Source: Haloarcula rubripromontorii (GTDB lineage Archaea > Halobacteriota > Halobacteria > Halobacteriales > Haloarculaceae). From it: a DNA stretch of 64,000 bases. The DNA lies in the NCBI RefSeq assembly GCF_001280425.1, contig NZ_LIUF01000007.1, positions 1 to 64,000 on the forward strand. The letters are read 5' to 3'. Made by a program: the position numbers and the translations under genes. How positions within the stretch are numbered: position 1 is the stretch's first letter; each line of letters opens with the position of its first letter. Under the pieces are notes generated by a model. It worked only from the letters and a program-made list of their open reading frames with translations, did not search any database and was not told where the DNA came from. This document shows positions 1 through 49,303 of the stretch, in pieces.

Positions 1-649
1 GGTGATAACGGCGGAATTACGGGAATGGCGCGGCCGCGCCATTCCCTTGGAGGGCAAACAGATCCACGATGTGGTCGATGATCTCTCGCGGAAGTACATC
101 GACGTAGAGGTGGAAGCGGAGTTCAAGCGTGGCCAGTACGAGGGAACCCGGTCGCTGGACACGAAGCGATTTCGCGTCGTCGGCGTCCGCAACGAGGACG
201 CCGACGACTACCACCTATACATCACGAATCTACCGAGAGAGGAGTTTCTCCCGGCGGATCTAGCGACGCTGTATCGGTGTCGATGGGAAGTAGAAACGTT
301 GTTCCGTGAGTTGAAGACGCAGTACGAACTGGACGAATTCGACACGAACAACCCTGATGTCGTGAAGATTCTACTGTACGCAGCGTTGCTGTCACTGCTG
401 GTGAGTCGTGAGTTGTTGGATCTGGTCACTGAGCAGGCCGACGATGAGATCGTGTTTCCGCCGGAACGCTGGGCGGCGACCTTCCGGTCGCACGCCCAGC
501 TCATCCTTCACGAACTCGGTGAGTACCTCGGTTACTCGCCACCGCCGTTGTTGGAGCGGCTAATCGAAGATGCCCAGAAAATCCACCAACAACGACCGAT
601 CTTACAAGAGACGCTCGCTACCGCTACACAACCGAGGTGTGAGTCTTAG
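1..649 (+). CDS. IS4-family (ISH8-like) transposase, C-terminal part
   Basis: DDE transposase that would move an insertion sequence. The visible 215 residues contain the IS4-family YREK signature in exact spacing: Y91, R94, E98 and K105 within the segment YRCRWEVETLFRELK, where the glutamate is the third catalytic acid. The reading frame runs in from the left edge, so the N-terminal half with the first two catalytic aspartates lies outside the window; the GTG at base 2 is not a credible start. The stop at 647-649 lies just inside the right end of the element and overlaps the stop of the opposite-strand hsdM. The family is common in haloarchaea; the exact ISH8-group name is from memory of family style, not a search. 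Confidence 0.88.
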   Translation, partial: VITAELREWRGRAIPLEGKQIHDVVDDLSRKYIDVEVEAEFKRGQYEGTRSLDTKRFRVVGVRNEDADDYHLYITNLPREEFLPADLATLYRCRWEVETLFRELKTQYELDEFDTNNPDVVKILLYAALLSLLVSRELLDLVTEQADDEIVFPPERWAATFRSHAQLILHELGEYLGYSPPPLLERLIEDAQKIHQQRPILQETLATATQPRCES

Positions 650-662
650 CTAAAGACGAATA
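642..662. repeat. Probable right terminal inverted repeat of the IS element
   Basis: Just past the transposase stop lies the near-palindrome GTCTTAGCTAAAGAC followed by GAATAA. Read from outside inward this is ATTCGTCTTTAGCTAAGAC, which resembles the termini I associate with ISH8-type elements. The left terminus is outside the window, so the repeat and any target duplication cannot be paired here. Confidence 0.55.
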
Positions 663-2100
663 ACTCGCGTAGTTTGCCGAGTTCTTCCTGAACATCAATG
701 TCCTCTTCCGGCTCGGTGGTATCGACGTACAGAGCGATGTTCAGGTTGTGGTCGTTCTCTCGAATTTCGTCCATTGACACCGTTCGGCTGACCCGTTCCT
801 CGGTCGTCCAGTTGCGGAAATTCTCGACGATGTGGTCGAGGCCCTCGTCAGTCAGTTCGTTCTGGTTCGAGAGTTCGCGGTAGAAGGCTTCGTCGGCGGC
901 GTGGATGAATTGTACCTCGTGCGCCCGTTCGTCTGCCTTGTCGGTGTTCAGGACGAGAATCGCGCTCGGAATCGAGTTGTTCTGAAAGAGGTTCTCGGGA
1001 AGCCCGACGATTGCTTCTACAAGGTCGTCTTCGAGCATTGGCTCACGGTATTTGCTCTCGTGCTTGCGGAACAGCACGCCGTGAGGAATGACGATAGCCG
1101 CCTTCCCGCCCGAGTCGTCTCCCCGGTCGGGGTCCTTCAGTTGCTCGGCCATGTGCATGATGAAACTGTAGTCGCCCCGGTCGGCGCGGGGGAGTTTCTC
1201 GGCCCAATGGAAGCGACCATACGGGTCGTCCTGAAGCCCGTCCTTGTCCCAATCAACGGAGAACGGGAAGTTAGCCAGCACTCGGTCGAAGCGCTTGAGT
1301 TCGTTGTCGTCCTCGTTGGTGAACGCCGGACTCGACAACGAGTCTTCGCGCTCGATGGTGCCATTGAGGCCGTGAATCGAGAGGTTCATCTTCGCAATCG
1401 CCGCTATGTCGGGATTGATTTCCTGCCCGGTGAAGGTCATCTTCGAGGGGTCGCCACCCTGTTCCTCGCGGTAGTACCGGGCGGCCTCAATGAGCATACC
1501 GCCCGAGCCGACCGTTGGGTCGTGGAAGGTGTGGCCGTCCTCGAACTCGTCCACGAGGCGAACGCAGAGATTCACGATATGAGGAGGTGTAAAAAACTGC
1601 CCGCCCGACTTCCCCTCTTCTTCTGCGAAGTGGCGTACAAGGTCCATGTACGCCTCTCCGAGCATGTCCGGCGGGATACTGTCACGGTCAAGGTCGTGCT
1701 TCGAGAGGTGTTCAACGAGTTTTCCGAGCCGGTCGTCGTCCAACGCGTCGGCGTCGATGTAATCAGCCCGGAAGAGGCCCTGAAGTTCGGGGTTCTCGTC
1801 GGTGAGCGCGTCGAAGGCCTCGTTCAGTTCCTTGTCCACGTTGTCCGAGACGGAACGAAGGTCGTCCCACAGGTAGCCCTCGGGAACGACCGGAATGTCG
1901 TATAGGTTCTCCCGGCGGGCGAAGTCCTCGCCGTACTCTTCGAGGTTCTGCTGATACTGTTTCTCGAACTCGTCGGAAATCGACTTGTAGTAGACGAGCG
2001 GCAGGATGTACTCCTTGTAGTCGGTCGGGTCTACGGCGTCACGAATAATGTCGGCGCATTTGAAAAGATGTGAGTCCAGTTCTTCCAACGAGAGGGTCAT
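646..2100 (-). CDS. hsdM: Type I restriction-modification methylase subunit HsdM, 3' end truncated by IS
   Basis: Modification subunit of a type I restriction system, which methylates adenine when complexed with HsdS. 484 residues: an HsdM N-terminal helical domain (about 5-140), the GQFFTP segment (167-172), SAM motif I DPTVGSGG (194-201), and the catalytic motif IV, here NFPF (277-280) instead of the usual NPPF. The last five residues (LFVFS) and the stop are encoded by the terminal repeat of the adjoining IS, so the natural C-terminal helix (roughly the last 20-40 residues) is missing. hsdS and hsdR, if present, would lie beyond the IS and are not visible. Upstream on the same strand, 115 bases away, is a HAD-like gene. 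Function is probably impaired; this is inference. Confidence 0.9.
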   Translation of the reverse strand: MTLSLEELDSHLFKCADIIRDAVDPTDYKEYILPLVYYKSISDEFEKQYQQNLEEYGEDFARRENLYDIPVVPEGYLWDDLRSVSDNVDKELNEAFDALTDENPELQGLFRADYIDADALDDDRLGKLVEHLSKHDLDRDSIPPDMLGEAYMDLVRHFAEEEGKSGGQFFTPPHIVNLCVRLVDEFEDGHTFHDPTVGSGGMLIEAARYYREEQGGDPSKMTFTGQEINPDIAAIAKMNLSIHGLNGTIEREDSLSSPAFTNEDDNELKRFDRVLANFPFSVDWDKDGLQDDPYGRFHWAEKLPRADRGDYSFIMHMAEQLKDPDRGDDSGGKAAIVIPHGVLFRKHESKYREPMLEDDLVEAIVGLPENLFQNNSIPSAILVLNTDKADERAHEVQFIHAADEAFYRELSNQNELTDEGLDHIVENFRNWTTEERVSRTVSMDEIRENDHNLNIALYVDTTEPEEDIDVQEELGKLRELFVFS

Positions 2101-5847: not shown

Positions 5848-6051
5848 TCACTCTTGACGCTGAACGAGAGCAAGGTGAATAAGTAAGCCGAGGATTCCAA
5901 GGAAGCCCAACGCGACACCTCGGAGTTTCGAGTTCGCCAAGCCTCGTTTCTCCGAATCCGAGTAGACGTAGTACCCAACGGTCGGCCAAAACACGAGAAG
6001 ATACAGGCCAACACGAACCAGCAGGCCGTTGTATGCGGTTAAGAGGGTCAT
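5848..6051 (-). CDS. Small two-helix membrane protein (67 aa), copy 1
   Basis: 67 residues starting MTLLTAYNGLLVRVGLYLLV with two hydrophobic segments (about 8-28 and 46-62) separated by a charged stretch DSEKRGLANSK. Not a family I can name. It overlaps the preceding gene by ATGA, so the two are translationally coupled. A second copy, about 80-85 percent identical in protein and recognisable at DNA level, lies in the opposite orientation at 8349-8552. Last gene of the minus-strand small-gene string 7044-5848. Function unknown. Confidence 0.75.
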   Translation of the reverse strand: MTLLTAYNGLLVRVGLYLLVFWPTVGYYVYSDSEKRGLANSKLRGVALGFLGILGLLIHLALVQRQE

Positions 6052-6274: not shown

Positions 6275-6658
6275 TTATGCTGTCGGCACGGGCGACTCAC
6301 TGCCGAGTTCGTCCAAACGACCGTAGGTGATTTCGTCGGCGTTCTCGTCGGTCAGCCCGTACTCCGCGAGATACTTCCGGACGGTCGTCGGGCTACAGTC
6401 GAATCCATCACGGGCCGCTATCTCGTCCGCTGAAAGGCCCTGTTCGACGTACAGGCGGCGCAGTGTCGGTTCGTGTCGCCACGGGCGAAGGACGCCGAGG
6501 CGTTCCATGTGGACGGTCACGCGGCTCACTTCGGTACCCAACTCGTAGGCAATAGTTCGAGGCGACAGGCCCCGCTCGTGATAGGCCCACCGAAGGAAGT
6601 CGCGGTCGCGCCACGGCTGGTCTTCTGGCACGCGCTCGGGTGGAAGGCGGAAGGTCAT
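6275..6658 (-). CDS. Protein with two tandem helix-turn-helix repeats
   Basis: 127 residues. Two homologous halves each begin with WR, pass through RGLS/QGLS and end in a recognition-helix-like stretch: residues about 16-57 (WRDRDFLRWAYHERGLS... VTVHMERLGV) and about 60-101 (WRHEPTLRRLYVEQGLS... TTVRKYLAEYGL). This is the layout of sigma-factor-region-4-like or transposase-type HTH repeats. No catalytic domain is present. It is likely the DNA-binding regulator of the small-gene string or of the island. Its start overlaps, by ATGA, a possible 17-residue frame (6655-6708). Confidence 0.75.
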   Translation of the reverse strand: MTFRLPPERVPEDQPWRDRDFLRWAYHERGLSPRTIAYELGTEVSRVTVHMERLGVLRPWRHEPTLRRLYVEQGLSADEIAARDGFDCSPTTVRKYLAEYGLTDENADEITYGRLDELGSESPVPTA

Positions 6659-7044: not shown

Positions 7045-7197
7045 ACTATCAGCCCCAATCGGTGTATCAGTTTCCCCGACTGGCCGGTGCCGTAGGCTAC
7101 CGGGCAAACGAACATCGGCCCATGTTCAATGCAATTCAACCCCGAAAATTAGCGAAACGGATTGGTCTTGATTCGGCATACACCGCTCCCACCCCAC

Positions 7198-7210
7198 GTT
7201 TTATAAAAGT
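7198..7210 (+). promoter_or_regulatory. TATA box of tRNA-Thr
   Basis: The palindromic TTTTATAAAA at about 7199-7208 is a strong archaeal TATA element, with another AT-rich stretch (GGTTATAATATG) just after. It lies about 70-80 bases before the tRNA, so the transcript would have a leader to be trimmed by RNase P. Being palindromic it could also serve the divergent small genes. Confidence 0.5.
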
Positions 7211-7277
7211 GCAATGGTTATAATATGATAAGAGGGGCCGAATTGGACGGCCTACCGGCAACCCTTGCCGAGAACGC

Positions 7278-7349
7278 GCCTGGGTAGCTTAGCGGTAAAG
7301 CGCGTCCTTGGTAAGGACGAGACCCCGGATTCAAATTCCGGCCTAGGCT
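7278..7349 (+). tRNA. tRNA-Thr (anticodon GGU)
   Basis: Complete cloverleaf: acceptor GCCTGGG pairs with CCTAGGC (one G-U), D arm GCTT/AAGC with AGCGGTA loop, anticodon stem CGTCC/GGACG with loop TTGGTAA (anticodon GGT in DNA), T arm CCGGA/TCCGG with loop TTCAAAT, discriminator T. No CCA is encoded. It sits inside the accessory island. A damaged relative with an otherwise better-paired acceptor end occurs at 8796-8859, so this copy may have been brought in by the mobile element. Confidence 0.95.
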
Positions 7350-7705
7350 CTTTCCTCCGTACACTCCTTGTACGCACACTTTTCTGACTACATTCGTCTG
7401 AACGAAACCCGTTCAAGATTCGCTTCTCTCGCTAAACAGGGCATCCCTCGCCGTAATGCGATTCGGAGAGGTGTCAGGACACACAAATTAAATCACAGAC
7501 AGCGGCGGGATAGACCCGAAATCGACCGGGGGCGCGTCGCTTCAGGGACACACAGGATTTCGCTAATCAACGCTCACAGAGGGAGGGTTGAACCTTGGTC
7601 AAGAATGTGATAGAACTGCCTCTCGATGCGGCCATCCACGTCGGTTACGCGGCGAGTGAGGCCCCGCCGAAACGCCTATTGGTAAGACCAGCGTATTACG
7701 TCTAT
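7350..7705. other. Gene-free stretch between tRNA-Thr and the antitoxin gene
   Basis: No frame on either strand looks coding; the + frame from 7595 lacks haloarchaeal composition before the ATG at 7706. The string GGACACACA with a preceding CAG occurs twice (about 7476 and 7548). An integrase remnant was looked for and not seen. Confidence 0.45.
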
Positions 7706-7984
7706 ATGTCTGAAGCGGCCACAAACGACGACGGAGGGGACGACATCGCCACGGTGAATTTCAAACTCACCGAGTCGTTCCTCGAACAGATAGACGATAC
7801 GTGGCAGGGACGCGGGTTCAACAGTCGGAGCGAGTTCATCCGGTACACGCTTCGAGACGCCGTCGAGTTCCCGACGTTCGACCGCGACGAACTCGTCGCC
7901 CTGCTCGAAGCTGAGGAGGACATCCGCGAGGGACGAACGACGAGCGCCGAGGAGGCCCGCGAGCGGTTCGGTACGGATGAGTGA
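7706..7984 (+). CDS. Ribbon-helix-helix antitoxin (CopG/ParD-like)
   Basis: 92 residues from ATG 7706. The segment TVNFKLTESFLEQID followed by SRSEFIRYTLRDAVE is a standard ribbon-helix-helix DNA-binding fold, and the acidic C-terminal tail (DELVALLEAEEDIREG) is the part that would wrap the toxin. It overlaps the following RelE-like gene by eight bases, the usual arrangement of a type II toxin-antitoxin operon in which the antitoxin dimer represses its own promoter. An upstream ATG-less extension in the same frame is unlikely to be translated. The next AT-rich box is immediately before the ATG, so the message may be leaderless. Confidence 0.85.
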   Translation: MSEAATNDDGGDDIATVNFKLTESFLEQIDDTWQGRGFNSRSEFIRYTLRDAVEFPTFDRDELVALLEAEEDIREGRTTSAEEARERFGTDE

Positions 7985-8261
7985 TGAGGAGTGGACGTGG
8001 GAACTCTCCTCGACCGCCGAGAATGACCTCGATGGACTCTCCCCCGCCGACCAAGACAGGATACTCGACAAACTCGATGAGATAGTCTCCTCGCCGTGGC
8101 GCGACCCGCCGGACTACGGGGAACCGCTCCAGAACAGCCCGTACAAGAAGATACGCGTCGGGGAGTTTCGGCTCTCCGTGAGCTTTCGTCGGAACAATGA
8201 GCGTCTGGTCGTCGCGCGTATCAAGCGTCGGGGTGGTGCATACACCGCTGACGACGACTAA
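7977..8261 (+). CDS. RelE/ParE-family toxin
   Basis: 94 residues. WTWELSSTAENDLDGLSPADQDRILDKLDEIVSSPWRDPPDY is the RelE N-terminal strand plus two helices, followed by the core strands PYKKIRVGEFRLSVSFRRNNERLVVARIKRRGG, with the conserved arginines of the family. RelE members cut mRNA on the ribosome and ParE members act on gyrase; the sequence does not decide between them. Eight-base overlap with the antitoxin gene indicates co-translation. Lies between the intact tRNA-Thr and its remnant. Confidence 0.85.
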   Translation: MSDEEWTWELSSTAENDLDGLSPADQDRILDKLDEIVSSPWRDPPDYGEPLQNSPYKKIRVGEFRLSVSFRRNNERLVVARIKRRGGAYTADDD

Positions 8262-8348
8262 ATAGTCGAAAAATACGCCGATAGACATTTCTCAATGCCT
8301 AACTGATATTCCTGATATGGTTCCCCGCGTCGATGAGGTAAGAGCGAG

Positions 8349-8552
8349 GTGAGCCTTCTAACCGCTTACAACGGCGTGTTGATTCGAGTCGGGCTGTATC
8401 TACTCGTATTTTGGCCAACTGTCGGCTACTACGTGTATTCCGATTCGGAGAAGCGGGAGTTCTCCAATCCGCAACTCCGAGGTGTCATCTTGGGATTCTT
8501 GGGTATCCTCGGATTGCTCATTCATTTGTCCCTCGTCCAACGGCAGGACTGA
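8349..8552 (+). CDS. Small two-helix membrane protein (67 aa), copy 2
   Basis: 67 residues from a GTG start, MSLLTAYNGVLIRVGLYLLV to LIHLSLVQRQD, collinear without gaps with the protein at 5848-6051. Two hydrophobic helices around a charged YSDSEKREFSNPQ linker. The coupled 56-residue partner found beside copy 1 is not present here; instead an 11-codon frame (8317-8352) overlaps the start by GTGA. Function unknown. It may be a duplicated island gene kept by selection, because substitutions between the copies are mostly conservative or synonymous. Confidence 0.75.
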   Translation: MSLLTAYNGVLIRVGLYLLVFWPTVGYYVYSDSEKREFSNPQLRGVILGFLGILGLLIHLSLVQRQD

Positions 8553-9062
8553 GTTCTTTCATCGTGTTTCGCCCGACTCGATGAAGGGAGCCATTCAGTT
8601 GAACCACGCATATCCCAAAATTCTGATGTGACAGAGAGGGCATCACTCACTCGAACACGTTTGTCGATTTCTTGCGTCCACAGACGGCATACGGGTCCGA
8701 ATATCCAATTCTTTTATAAGTAGATTGCTAACAGAGAGGTGAGAAGCGCGCAAAGTGGAAATTTTCGGCAAAGGTCGCCGCTTTCAGGGCCGAAGGCCTC
8801 CTCGGTAAAGCAAGTCCTTGGTAAGGACGAGACCTCGGATTCAAATTCCGGCCGAGGCTTTTCCGAGTACACTTCTGTGAGGCCTCCGTCGCCGAGTGAC
8901 TACTGTGGTCGGAGAGTCAGAACCGGGATCTGACGCGCTGGACGGCGAGCGACGCGATTCTGCCGCCAGTTCAACTCCCGGCCGGCTCGATTCCGAAGCG
9001 CATTGTCGCGGCCGCTGAAACCATGCCCGGCGCTTATGTGAACGTGGCCGCTGGTGAGAGAT
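8553..9062. other. Gene-free island border with TATA box and tRNA remnant
   Basis: Contains TTTTATAAGTAG at about 8713, the tRNA-Thr remnant at 8796-8859, and an AT-to-GC composition change after about 8870. No coding frame is credible. Confidence 0.5.
8796..8859 (+). pseudogene. Broken tRNA-Thr(GGU) remnant / attachment-site scar
   Basis: The 3' two thirds match tRNA-Thr: anticodon arm GTCC-TTGGTAA-GGAC, T arm with TTCAAAT and acceptor strand CCGAGGC plus T. The 5' side is GCCTC-CTCGGTAAAGC, so the D-arm 5' strand and part of the acceptor are deleted (about ten bases). Anticodon-stem 5' side has AAG instead of GCG. A TATA element lies about 80 bases upstream, as in the intact gene. It cannot fold as a tRNA. 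Its T stem and acceptor differ from the intact copy at only two positions. Confidence 0.8.
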
Positions 9063-10070
9063 ATGCAAGCCGCGGCTATGCAAGACCATCTCCGAGACAG
9101 GCTGTACGAGGTGTCGCCGGAGCAGTTCGAGATCCTGTGCAAGATGGTCCTCAGCCGCCGCCTCGAGACGGAGTCGGTGCAGGTGACGGCGTTCCGGCAG
9201 GACGACGGCATCGACGTCGAGGGCGTCATCGAGGAGGATGTCGTCCGGGTGTTGTTCGGTGCGCAGGTCAAGCGATACCACGAGGGCAACACGGTTAGCA
9301 GCGGGCACGTACAACGCTTCAGCGGGGCACTGACTCAAGGGAACTACCAGACGGGAACCTTTCTCACCTCCAGTTCGTTCACGGGGCCGGCGAGACGAGC
9401 GGCCGAGAACCTTCAGATACACCTCGTCGACGGGGAGCAACTTGCGGCAACGATGGTCAGCAACAGCATCGGTGTTGCCGAGAGGGTCAGTGGCTACGAG
9501 CTACAGCCGGAGTTTTGGGACGCACTGACCGAACCGGAGCGGACCGATACGATTCCCTCTAAGGAGGTCCCGCTTGCCAACAGTTTCGAGTCGCTTCGAG
9601 AGTTCTTGGCGGCCATCGACGAGACGGACGGCACTAGAGCGGAAATCAACAACGCGGTCTCGGAGTTTGACTCGCGGCACGCTGACCTCTACGGCACTGC
9701 TGGCTGGCTGTTGGGCTTCGTACACGAGGACACGCCGACAGAGGTCGACGGTCGCGAGGTCCGTCGCTGGGGGTTGACCAAGAACGGCCTCGAGTACCGC
9801 CGCCTGCACGAGTCTGGCGACACTGAAGCGGCCCGTAAGCGCCTCATTGCTGGCCTTCGACAGGTCGAGGTTGTCGACCGCCTTGCGACAGTGATAGCGG
9901 AGCGCGGGTCCCTCTCGTACGATGAGCTGAAGGCGGTGCTGGCTGCCGAGACGGACCTGTCCGAGTCGAGCGTGGCTCGCCGAGCGAGTACGCTCGGTCA
10001 GTGGCTCACCGTACTCCCGGAGATAGCCGAGCGACCCGAAGGCCGTAGCAAGAAGTTCGTCAGCGTCTAA
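9063..10070 (+). CDS. Mrr-like restriction endonuclease
   Basis: 335 residues from ATG 9063 (GTG at 9054 also possible; TATA-like GCTTATGTG near 9034 favours a near-leaderless start). The N-terminal domain has the PD-(D/E)xK variant of the Mrr family: G-I-D51 and, on the next strand, F-G-A-Q68-V-K70, followed by GNTVSSGHVQRFSGAL and ...TGTFLTSSSFT, all typical of Mrr_cat. Residues about 245-335 are a winged-helix-like domain. Mrr enzymes cut DNA carrying foreign methylation. It stands alone, without a methylase, at the island border. Confidence 0.85.
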   Translation: MQAAAMQDHLRDRLYEVSPEQFEILCKMVLSRRLETESVQVTAFRQDDGIDVEGVIEEDVVRVLFGAQVKRYHEGNTVSSGHVQRFSGALTQGNYQTGTFLTSSSFTGPARRAAENLQIHLVDGEQLAATMVSNSIGVAERVSGYELQPEFWDALTEPERTDTIPSKEVPLANSFESLREFLAAIDETDGTRAEINNAVSEFDSRHADLYGTAGWLLGFVHEDTPTEVDGREVRRWGLTKNGLEYRRLHESGDTEAARKRLIAGLRQVEVVDRLATVIAERGSLSYDELKAVLAAETDLSESSVARRASTLGQWLTVLPEIAERPEGRSKKFVSV

Positions 10071-10102
10071 TTGTTGACCGCCTCCTAGCCGACTGACTCG
10101 GC

Positions 10103-10546
10103 TCAGTCTCGCTCGGGTTCCTCAGCCAGCGCTCTGTCCCGCAGTTCACGGCACTCCTCGCTTTCGGCGGTCAGTTCGGGGACCGGCGTCGGTGTCCCGT
10201 CGTCGACGGCGACGAAAGTGGCGTACGCGCTGGTCGTCTCTTCCGTTTCGCCCGTGTGTGGCTCCTCGCGGGCGACCTCGATGCGGACCCGGACGCTAGT
10301 TCGGCCGGTAGCGTAGGCGTAGGAGTCAACGAGTGCGGTGTCGCCGATGGGAATCGGTCGTTCGAAGTCGACACGAGACATCTGTGCGGTCACGCAGGTC
10401 TCCCTGGCGGCCCGCATGGCAGACATCGCGCCGATTTCGTCCATCCACTTCATGACGATGCCGCCGTGGGCGCTCTGGTAGTTGTTCGCGTGAGTCGGCT
10501 GGACGCGCTCGCGGTTGACGATGTGCGTCTCGGCGATGGTCGGCAT
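10103..10546 (-). CDS. Acyl-CoA thioesterase (hotdog fold)
   Basis: 147 residues from ATG 10546 (MPTIAETHIVNRERVQP). The hotdog signature is clear: N-Y-Q-S-A-H-G-G-I-V-M-K-W-M-D-E, with the catalytic acidic residue on the central helix, then VDFERPIPIGDTALVDSYAY. This is the YciA/BACH-type acyl-CoA thioesterase layout, which hydrolyses acyl-CoA to free acid. Acidic C-terminal tail. A longer frame back to 10648 exists but has no matching family sequence. First core-chromosome gene after the island. Confidence 0.85.
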   Translation of the reverse strand: MPTIAETHIVNRERVQPTHANNYQSAHGGIVMKWMDEIGAMSAMRAARETCVTAQMSRVDFERPIPIGDTALVDSYAYATGRTSVRVRIEVAREEPHTGETEETTSAYATFVAVDDGTPTPVPELTAESEECRELRDRALAEEPERD

Positions 10547-10673
10547 ACCTCCTCGTAGCGCCTGTTCCGACAAAACGGTGTGGTGCGCCCCTGATAATGC
10601 CTGACTGCGACCGTCCGCACCGATACTGTCGCCGTGGTTCGCAGTCAACAGCTACGCAGCCGAACCGCCGGCG

Positions 10674-48767: not shown

Positions 48768-49107
48768 CGCACGGAGCGGGATTTCAACCCGGGCAAACGC
48801 GTCGCTGCCGCTCGCGTTTGCGTGATTCAAATCCCTCGCAGTCACACAGCGAAATAGAGCAATCGCGACGCGGTGAAACGCGTCGGTTCAAGATCTGAGG
48901 TTCAAATCCGCTCATTACGGATTTACGGCTCACGAGTTTATTCGCCGCAAAAGTACGCCCGGAGCGGGATTTGAACCGACGGAAGACGGTCGCCTCACTC
49001 TGTTCGGCGCTGCGACTTCCAGGGTTCAAATCCCGTACCGTCGTTCACTGCATAGAGTAATCGCGACGCGATGAAACGCGTCGCTTGTCGAGTTAATTTC
49101 AGAGAAA
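48768..49107. repeat. Decayed tRNA-like sequences beside the tRNA-Asp genes
   Basis: Two degenerate units (about 48768-48956 and 48957-49107). Each starts with a near copy of the tRNA-Asp 3' end on the minus strand (CGCACGGAGCGGGATTTCAA, then CGCCCGGAGCGGGATTTGAA) and also carries plus-strand T-arm-like strings (GATTCAAATCC, AGGTTCAAATCCG, AGGGTTCAAATCCC). Both contain AATCGCGACGCG...GAAACGCGTCG. No unit folds into a full tRNA. Confidence 0.7.
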
Positions 49108-49180
49108 CGCCCGGAGCGGGATTTGAACCCGCGTCACGACCGTGACAGGGTCGTATGATGGGCCACTACACCATCCGGGC
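49108..49180 (-). tRNA. tRNA-Asp (anticodon GUC), copy 1
   Basis: On the minus strand: acceptor GCCCGGA/TCCGGGC with G discriminator, D arm TGTAGTGGCCCATCATA, anticodon stem CGACC/GGTCG with loop CTGTCAC (GTC), T arm GCGGG/CCCGC with TTCAAAT. Identical to copy 2; separated from it by 50 bases that include a GAGCAC/GTGCTC hairpin, consistent with one precursor transcript. Confidence 0.96.
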
Positions 49181-49230
49181 AGCCTACGAGCACGCACTGC
49201 ATAGTGCTCGTCAGTTTGGTCGCAATAGAA

Positions 49231-49303
49231 CGCCCGGAGCGGGATTTGAACCCGCGTCACGACCGTGACAGGGTCGTATGATGGGCCACTACACCATCCG
49301 GGC
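49231..49303 (-). tRNA. tRNA-Asp (anticodon GUC), copy 2
   Basis: Same 73-base sequence as copy 1. A TATA-like TCTTAATACTG on the minus strand, about 30-35 bases before the tRNA 5' end (near 49333-49343), probably drives both copies. Copy 2 is therefore the first gene in the precursor. Confidence 0.96.

Follow-up and report, generated by a model that had tools for sequence, protein, structure and literature searches.

The 64,000-nt stretch of Haloarcula rubripromontorii DNA analysed here (the window, on contig C7 of the draft genome G000, which comprises 18 contigs with IS-related breaks) very probably represents the right half of a tandem array, in which two integrative elements occupy one tRNA-Thr(GGU) gene. 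Read in the direction of transcription, the array would start with the native upstream flank and the resident tRNA-Thr on contig C1 (C1:613072-613001) and run into element A, with its integrase adjoining the tRNA, then cargo, a type I restriction-modification operon interrupted by an IS in hsdM, and a P4-type primase; it would continue through the complete tRNA-Thr at 7278-7349, mini-element M and a tRNA fragment at 8803-8859, and end in the native downstream flank. Sequence comparison shows the integrations, the order of the parts and the crossover region: each element would have entered by a tyrosine-recombinase crossover at the anticodon loop, which would restore a whole tRNA on the native-promoter side and leave the displaced part at the far end. 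The remnant would then be the displaced far end of mini-element M and not a decayed resident gene, and the 7278 copy would be the far end of element A, whose attachment site would include the first part of the tRNA and so create a second complete gene.

Scanning the genome for tRNAs and searching its DNA turned up exactly one further intact tRNA-Thr(GGT) gene in G000, at C1:613001-613072, with identity to the 7278 copy over all 72 nt. In relatives from the genus, C1 above 613072 is matched by the flank upstream of their single tRNA-Thr(GGT), and in many of these genomes what follows that gene matches the window after 8860; C1 therefore holds the upstream half of the resident gene in intact form, and the remnant adjoins the native downstream flank (8860-10648, with a Mrr-type endonuclease gene at 9054-10070 and a thioesterase-like ORF at 10103-10648). 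In G027 the two contigs correspond to adjacent regions on either side of a single tRNA-Thr, in long synteny at about 93% identity (C7 78979-8935 corresponds to 2710276-2780324, and C1 613000-672750 to 2780548-2840000), and an empty site, flank-tRNA-flank without element A, is present in both G009 and G027. A huge island down to C1:493001 was considered, since C1 below 613000 lacks a local match in G027, and was rejected, because immediately below 599721 C1 is normal chromosomal sequence (G027:226-233 kb) joined through an IS. Elsewhere in the window, two near-identical tandem tRNA-Asp(GTC) genes lie about 50 bp apart on the minus strand (49107-49303).

The contigs are connected through an IS inserted in hsdM of element A. 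The window opens with one end of this IS, carrying the transposase C-terminus (1-662, plus strand); the contig breaks inside it, and the sequence is 100% identical to the copy at C1:599721-601122. A 10-bp target duplication, CTACGCGAGT, is found at window 663 onward, on the hsdM side, and at C1:601123, on the hsdS side, which identifies them as two sides of one IS insertion and joins the contigs. It counts against the tandem array that this link depends on the target duplication and a sister element, and that on C1 the IS leads into another part of the chromosome, corresponding to G027:226 kb; the partner target duplication for this second insertion, agccccggtaac, lies on C8. The mismatched duplications of the C1 copy, with partners on C7 and C8, imply either recombination between IS copies or a misjoin by the assembler.

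Element A measures about 18.5 kb plus the 1.4-kb IS and has a complete tRNA-Thr at each end. Its tyrosine integrase, a 396-aa ORF that starts 182 nt after the C1 tRNA (PF00589, 4e-17; phrog_1, 1.8e-29) and is presumably the enzyme that catalyses integration, is followed on C1 by cargo, then hsdR, hsdS and the IS (hsdS and hsdR at C1:601193-605474; hsdR TIGR00348, 1.3e-142). The part within the window holds hsdM (646-2100, minus strand; NCBIfam TIGR00497, 1.7e-52), whose 3' end is cut by the IS, a P4-family plasmid/phage primase-helicase (3298-4977, plus strand; TIGR01613, 7.2e-50, with D5_N and DUF5906) and a predicted small protein of 67 aa (5848-6051, minus strand), a paralogue of the one in M with 76% nucleotide identity to 8350-8553. 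A small HTH protein at 6275-6658 has PHROG matches of the HNH-endonuclease type (2.8e-13) but seems to lack the nuclease part. Small ORFs continue to the end of the element at 7277. In Halopiger djelfimassiliensis (L176), hsdM-hsdS-hsdR are contiguous beside a related integrase and tRNA-Thr, and the element ends about 18 kb from its tRNA. Element A does not match an SSV-type suicidal integrase element: its integrase is not split, the whole 396-aa ORF aligning end to end with relatives at 70-99%. As in tRNA-targeted tyrosine-integrase elements, the integrase lies by a complete tRNA and relatives have an empty site, but the far end, where a displaced partial tRNA is typical, holds a complete 72-nt gene, the fragment being present in the sisters. 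Judged by these sequence features, element A would be a variant of this class and not a standard member of it. Contig L179 (PUOX01000072.1), filed as a Mollicutes MAG, also carries a haloarchaeal-type tRNA-Thr with an integrase element and is apparently mis-binned.

The right arm site of element A (7230-7251, plus strand) is an inverted match to the left arm by the C1 integrase (local alignment score 20), a similarity that for this element alone is modest (15/1000 shuffles as good), and the centre of the arms falls at tRNA nt 33.25. The left and right arms are likewise inverted matches in G017 (0 shuffles as good per 1000) and G020 (13), and in the three elements the arm centres lie at nt 33.25-34.25, which is the anticodon. 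The right arm of the G006 mini-element equals the left arm of the integrase element L126 at 19/19 nt (0/1000 shuffles); L126 was the one related element in a scan of viral contigs, and has an intact tRNA at its integrase end only. All these right ends share a block consisting of a TATA-like box, the arm site and (C)CGGCAA or a close variant, nearly fixed at 15-16 nt before tRNA nt 1 with complete or incomplete cores, and the block also occurs on the Haladaptatus plasmid NZ_CP119784. The preliminary description had placed a TATA box about 80 nt upstream of both tRNA copies, and such boxes are indeed there: TTTTATAAAA at 7199-7208 (plus strand) in the right arm of element A, shared with the sister right ends and the Haladaptatus plasmid, and TTTTATAA at 8712-8719 in the right arm of M (8712-8758, plus strand; arm site at about 8741-8758), conserved before six remnants. 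We do not favour the boxes as tRNA promoters, since they are also present ahead of broken cores and on a plasmid. The arms are probably integrase arm sites, and the TATA box would serve the element, perhaps its integrase in the circular form. An AT stretch resembling a TATA box, some 25 nt ahead of an ATG, was also observed after the tRNA at G000:C1:612911-613000 and in the left ends of G017, G020 and L126; it may belong to a leaderless small gene or to an early integrase promoter.

At the other border, the putative attR of M (8788-8859, plus strand) combines element sequence with tRNA nt 16-72, the latter at 8803-8859 (E 3.7e-18, 93% identical), too good a match to have arisen by chance. The preliminary description was right to see a second tRNA-Thr stretch here, although not in its view that about ten bases are lacking: the remnant is in register over 72 nt, with nt 1-15 (8788-8802) replaced by a different sequence, GGCCGAAGGCCTCCT, that is conserved at the same position in six genomes of several families. 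Over nt 1-28, the remnants show 0-6 mismatches among genomes of different families and 10-14/28 against resident genes, whereas nt 36-72 tend to follow the remnant's own host. This host-specific 3' part is clear in G354 (0 mismatches to the gene of its own genome, 8 to the G000 gene) and uninformative or weaker in other genomes; the G000 remnant, with 2 mismatches to its resident gene, and that of G281, with 7/37, speak against a host-derived 3' half. An element-like nt 1-28 and a host-like nt 36-72 place the crossover between nt 28 and about nt 46, and make nt 1-15 element DNA. The G-U pair of the intact copy and the CCGAGGC strand of the remnant were both correctly recorded at the outset, but CCGAGGC does not represent a retained ancestral strand: the G006 and G217 remnants have CCTAGGC, as resident genes do, so that the form in G000 is most simply a later change. 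The same 57-nt fragment is found in G094 (103049-103105), with the same gene pair beside it.

That gene pair belongs to mini-element M (7350-8859, about 1.5 kb), which ends in the remnant. Its left non-coding end (7350-7594) recurs beside tRNA-Thr in many haloarchaeal genomes, mostly at 75-89% identity, and is followed on the plus strand by a ribbon-helix-helix (RHH) protein, a likely antitoxin (7595-7984; PF01402 at E 0.003, below the cut-off; phrog_27098, 2.8e-21), a ParE/RelE-like protein, a likely toxin (7977-8261; PF05016 at 1.3e-4 and 22.9 bits against a cut-off of 23; RelE-like phrog_1213, 1.3e-9), whose ORF overlaps the previous one by 8 nt, and a predicted small protein of 67 aa (8349-8552), without a Pfam match and with a homologue in the Haloquadratum (Hqr.) walsbyi remnant region. 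The search from 7350 to 8859 found no integrase ORF in M, which resembles an autonomous integrative element but is not one. The arrangement of an intact tRNA, 1.3-1.7 kb with an RHH/ParE-like pair and a remnant is shared by G006, G217, G281, G354 and G134, so that six genomes have the layout of an element, with a complete tRNA at one end and a fragment at the other. Sequence identity of M is 90% to G217, 88-90% to G281, G308, G102 and G354, 87% to G134 and 84% to G094, whereas identity in the KH/Rio1 core genes of these genomes is mostly 66-83%, which indicates that M spread horizontally. Tentatively, and with some doubt, we consider M a non-autonomous unit that moves between haloarchaeal families by means of integrases borrowed from tRNA-Thr elements in the same cell; some of these elements, like A, would leave a second complete tRNA gene as a fresh intact target for the next element.

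The complete tRNA-Thr(GGU) at 7278-7349 (plus strand), which from the flank comparisons would be both attR of element A and attL of M, was confirmed as a complete gene by ARAGORN, which calls tRNA-Thr(GGT), and by Rfam (RF00005, 66.8 bits, E 2.4e-12). It has a complete cloverleaf with one G-U pair in the acceptor stem, is 100% identical to the gene in about 30 genomes of the genus, and may be expressed. Its TATA-like box lies 79 nt upstream, compared with about 30 nt at the resident gene; upstream of nt 1 it does not match the C1 copy, and a leader specific to it, GAGAACGC, precedes GCCTGGG. The 5' part and the upstream region of this copy are element DNA, which agrees with the original suggestion that the island supplied its own tRNA sequence, and the data also support the suggestion that the pair of tRNA stretches marks two integration events. 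Sister elements, with integrases 95-96% identical, have the same right end at 81% and in the same register, with tRNA nt 17-72 only. Of the 262 genomes sampled across the order that gave a full-length match, G000 alone was seen to have complete copies on both sides of an element; the locus of G049, in the same survey, is interrupted by contig ends. The tandem full copies of G228, G230 and G258 were rejected as parallels, being 28-160 nt apart with no element between them. These close pairs of complete tRNA-Thr(GGT) genes (G228:C167:99171-99474, G230:C1:313856-314156 and G258:C19:104736-104907) are an observation in their own right, and in G258 the copies and their spacer form near-exact repeats. 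When plasmids and phages were searched with 7100-7400, none of the records combined the whole right end with a complete tRNA; the matches were fragments on the plasmids pHGLR3 and NZ_CP119784 and halovirus stretches annotated as tRNA-Thr. No element carrying a complete tRNA was found in the literature searched, which does not prove absence.

How element A came to end in a complete gene can be explained in more than one way. With a probability that we put slightly short of even, it had a truncated core (nt 17-72) in which gene conversion with a resident tRNA-Thr, in this host or a previous one, rewrote nt 1-16 in place. The sisters, with their closely similar integrases, share its right arm and register but have unrelated nt 1-16, and the sampled order offers no second case of bracketing complete copies; on the other hand, C1 as the donor would require a conversion tract ending at about nt 1 without homology. 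That the lineage of element A always carried a complete tRNA-Thr with its own promoter as cargo, later truncated in the sisters, is a possibility we hold with more reserve. The nearly constant distance between core and arm in all elements is what would be expected if truncated cores were degenerate whole tRNAs; yet in every other related end examined the tRNA part is confined to nt 15-30 to 72, and at nt 1-15 the mini-elements have in common a sequence that is not tRNA. It is very unlikely that the 7278 copy is an assembly chimera of the resident gene and an element end. The fragmented draft, its IS-related breaks and the mismatched target duplications of the C1 IS might suggest it, but 7.3 kb separate the copy from the contig end, the sequence it lies in occurs only once in G000, and the region upstream of it is homologous to the right ends of the sisters.

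Having seen an intact copy within the island and a remnant where the island ends, the preliminary description proposed a replacement: the island would have imported a tRNA-Thr while the resident gene decayed into the remnant, leaving the imported copy as the sole GGU decoder, so that loss of the island would remove it. This we regard as scarcely credible. The intact GGU gene on C1, identical and with its native upstream flank, contradicts both the decay of the resident gene and the dependence on the island, and the remnant is an attR-type fragment, its first 15 nt being an element sequence common to several families. The same broken copy also occurs without the island: the G006 locus has no element A, and in both G006 and G217 the mini-element and remnant stand alongside an intact resident gene. 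Both findings that the preliminary description had named as refuting its model, a further intact GGU gene and an identical broken copy where the island is absent, have thus been made. Contamination as the source of the C1 copy is unlikely to rescue the replacement, as its flank shares about 94% identity and tens of kb of synteny with G027.

Partial tRNA-Thr genes of this kind have been described before. Hqr. walsbyi C23 has a 57-nt fragment of tRNA-Thr1 that is missing 15 nt at the 5' end, downstream of an intact gene as in our array, and was interpreted as left behind by a prophage or plasmid (PMC3119063); the Hqr. walsbyi remnant region (L155) has the same RHH/ParE pair, the 67-aa ORF and the right arm adjoining. 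Unlike the present locus, where a 1.5-kb element has a second island stacked in front of it, the region between tRNA and fragment in C23 is 6.7 kb long and common to both strains. A similar truncated tRNA-Thr lies beside the integrase gene of haloviruses HF1/HF2 (PMC3119063). Archaeal tRNA-targeting tyrosine-recombinase elements (PMC8371274) and tDNA islands (Islander, PMC4383910) are alike in having an integrase by the rebuilt tRNA, a displaced part at the far end and a crossover at the anticodon loop; element A departs from them in ending in a complete tRNA gene and not a fragment. The SSV-type suicidal and pTN3-type 5'-half integrases also have tRNA targets (PMC8371274), and pTN3-like elements themselves provide the promoter from which the restored tRNA is transcribed (PMC8371274). 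At the present locus, by contrast, the native promoter region stays with the rebuilt resident gene, and the integrase ORF is uninterrupted (396 aa) and does not include the att site.

The tempting reading of tRNA replacement and addiction to the island is thus to be corrected. Recombination at the anticodon between the C1 and 7278 copies would remove element A and leave the native gene intact, so losing the large island by that route costs no GGU tRNA; recombination between the C1 copy and the remnant would bring CCGAGGC and a G-G mismatch into the acceptor stem. If anything stabilises the array, it may be the toxin-antitoxin-like pair and the restriction-modification system. The haloarchaeal tRNA-Thr gene emerges as a stacking site for islands, and with a complete tRNA at both ends of an element, integration leaves two intact targets instead of one. 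M, integrase-less, only 1.5 kb long and widespread, would make trans-mobilisation in archaea testable.
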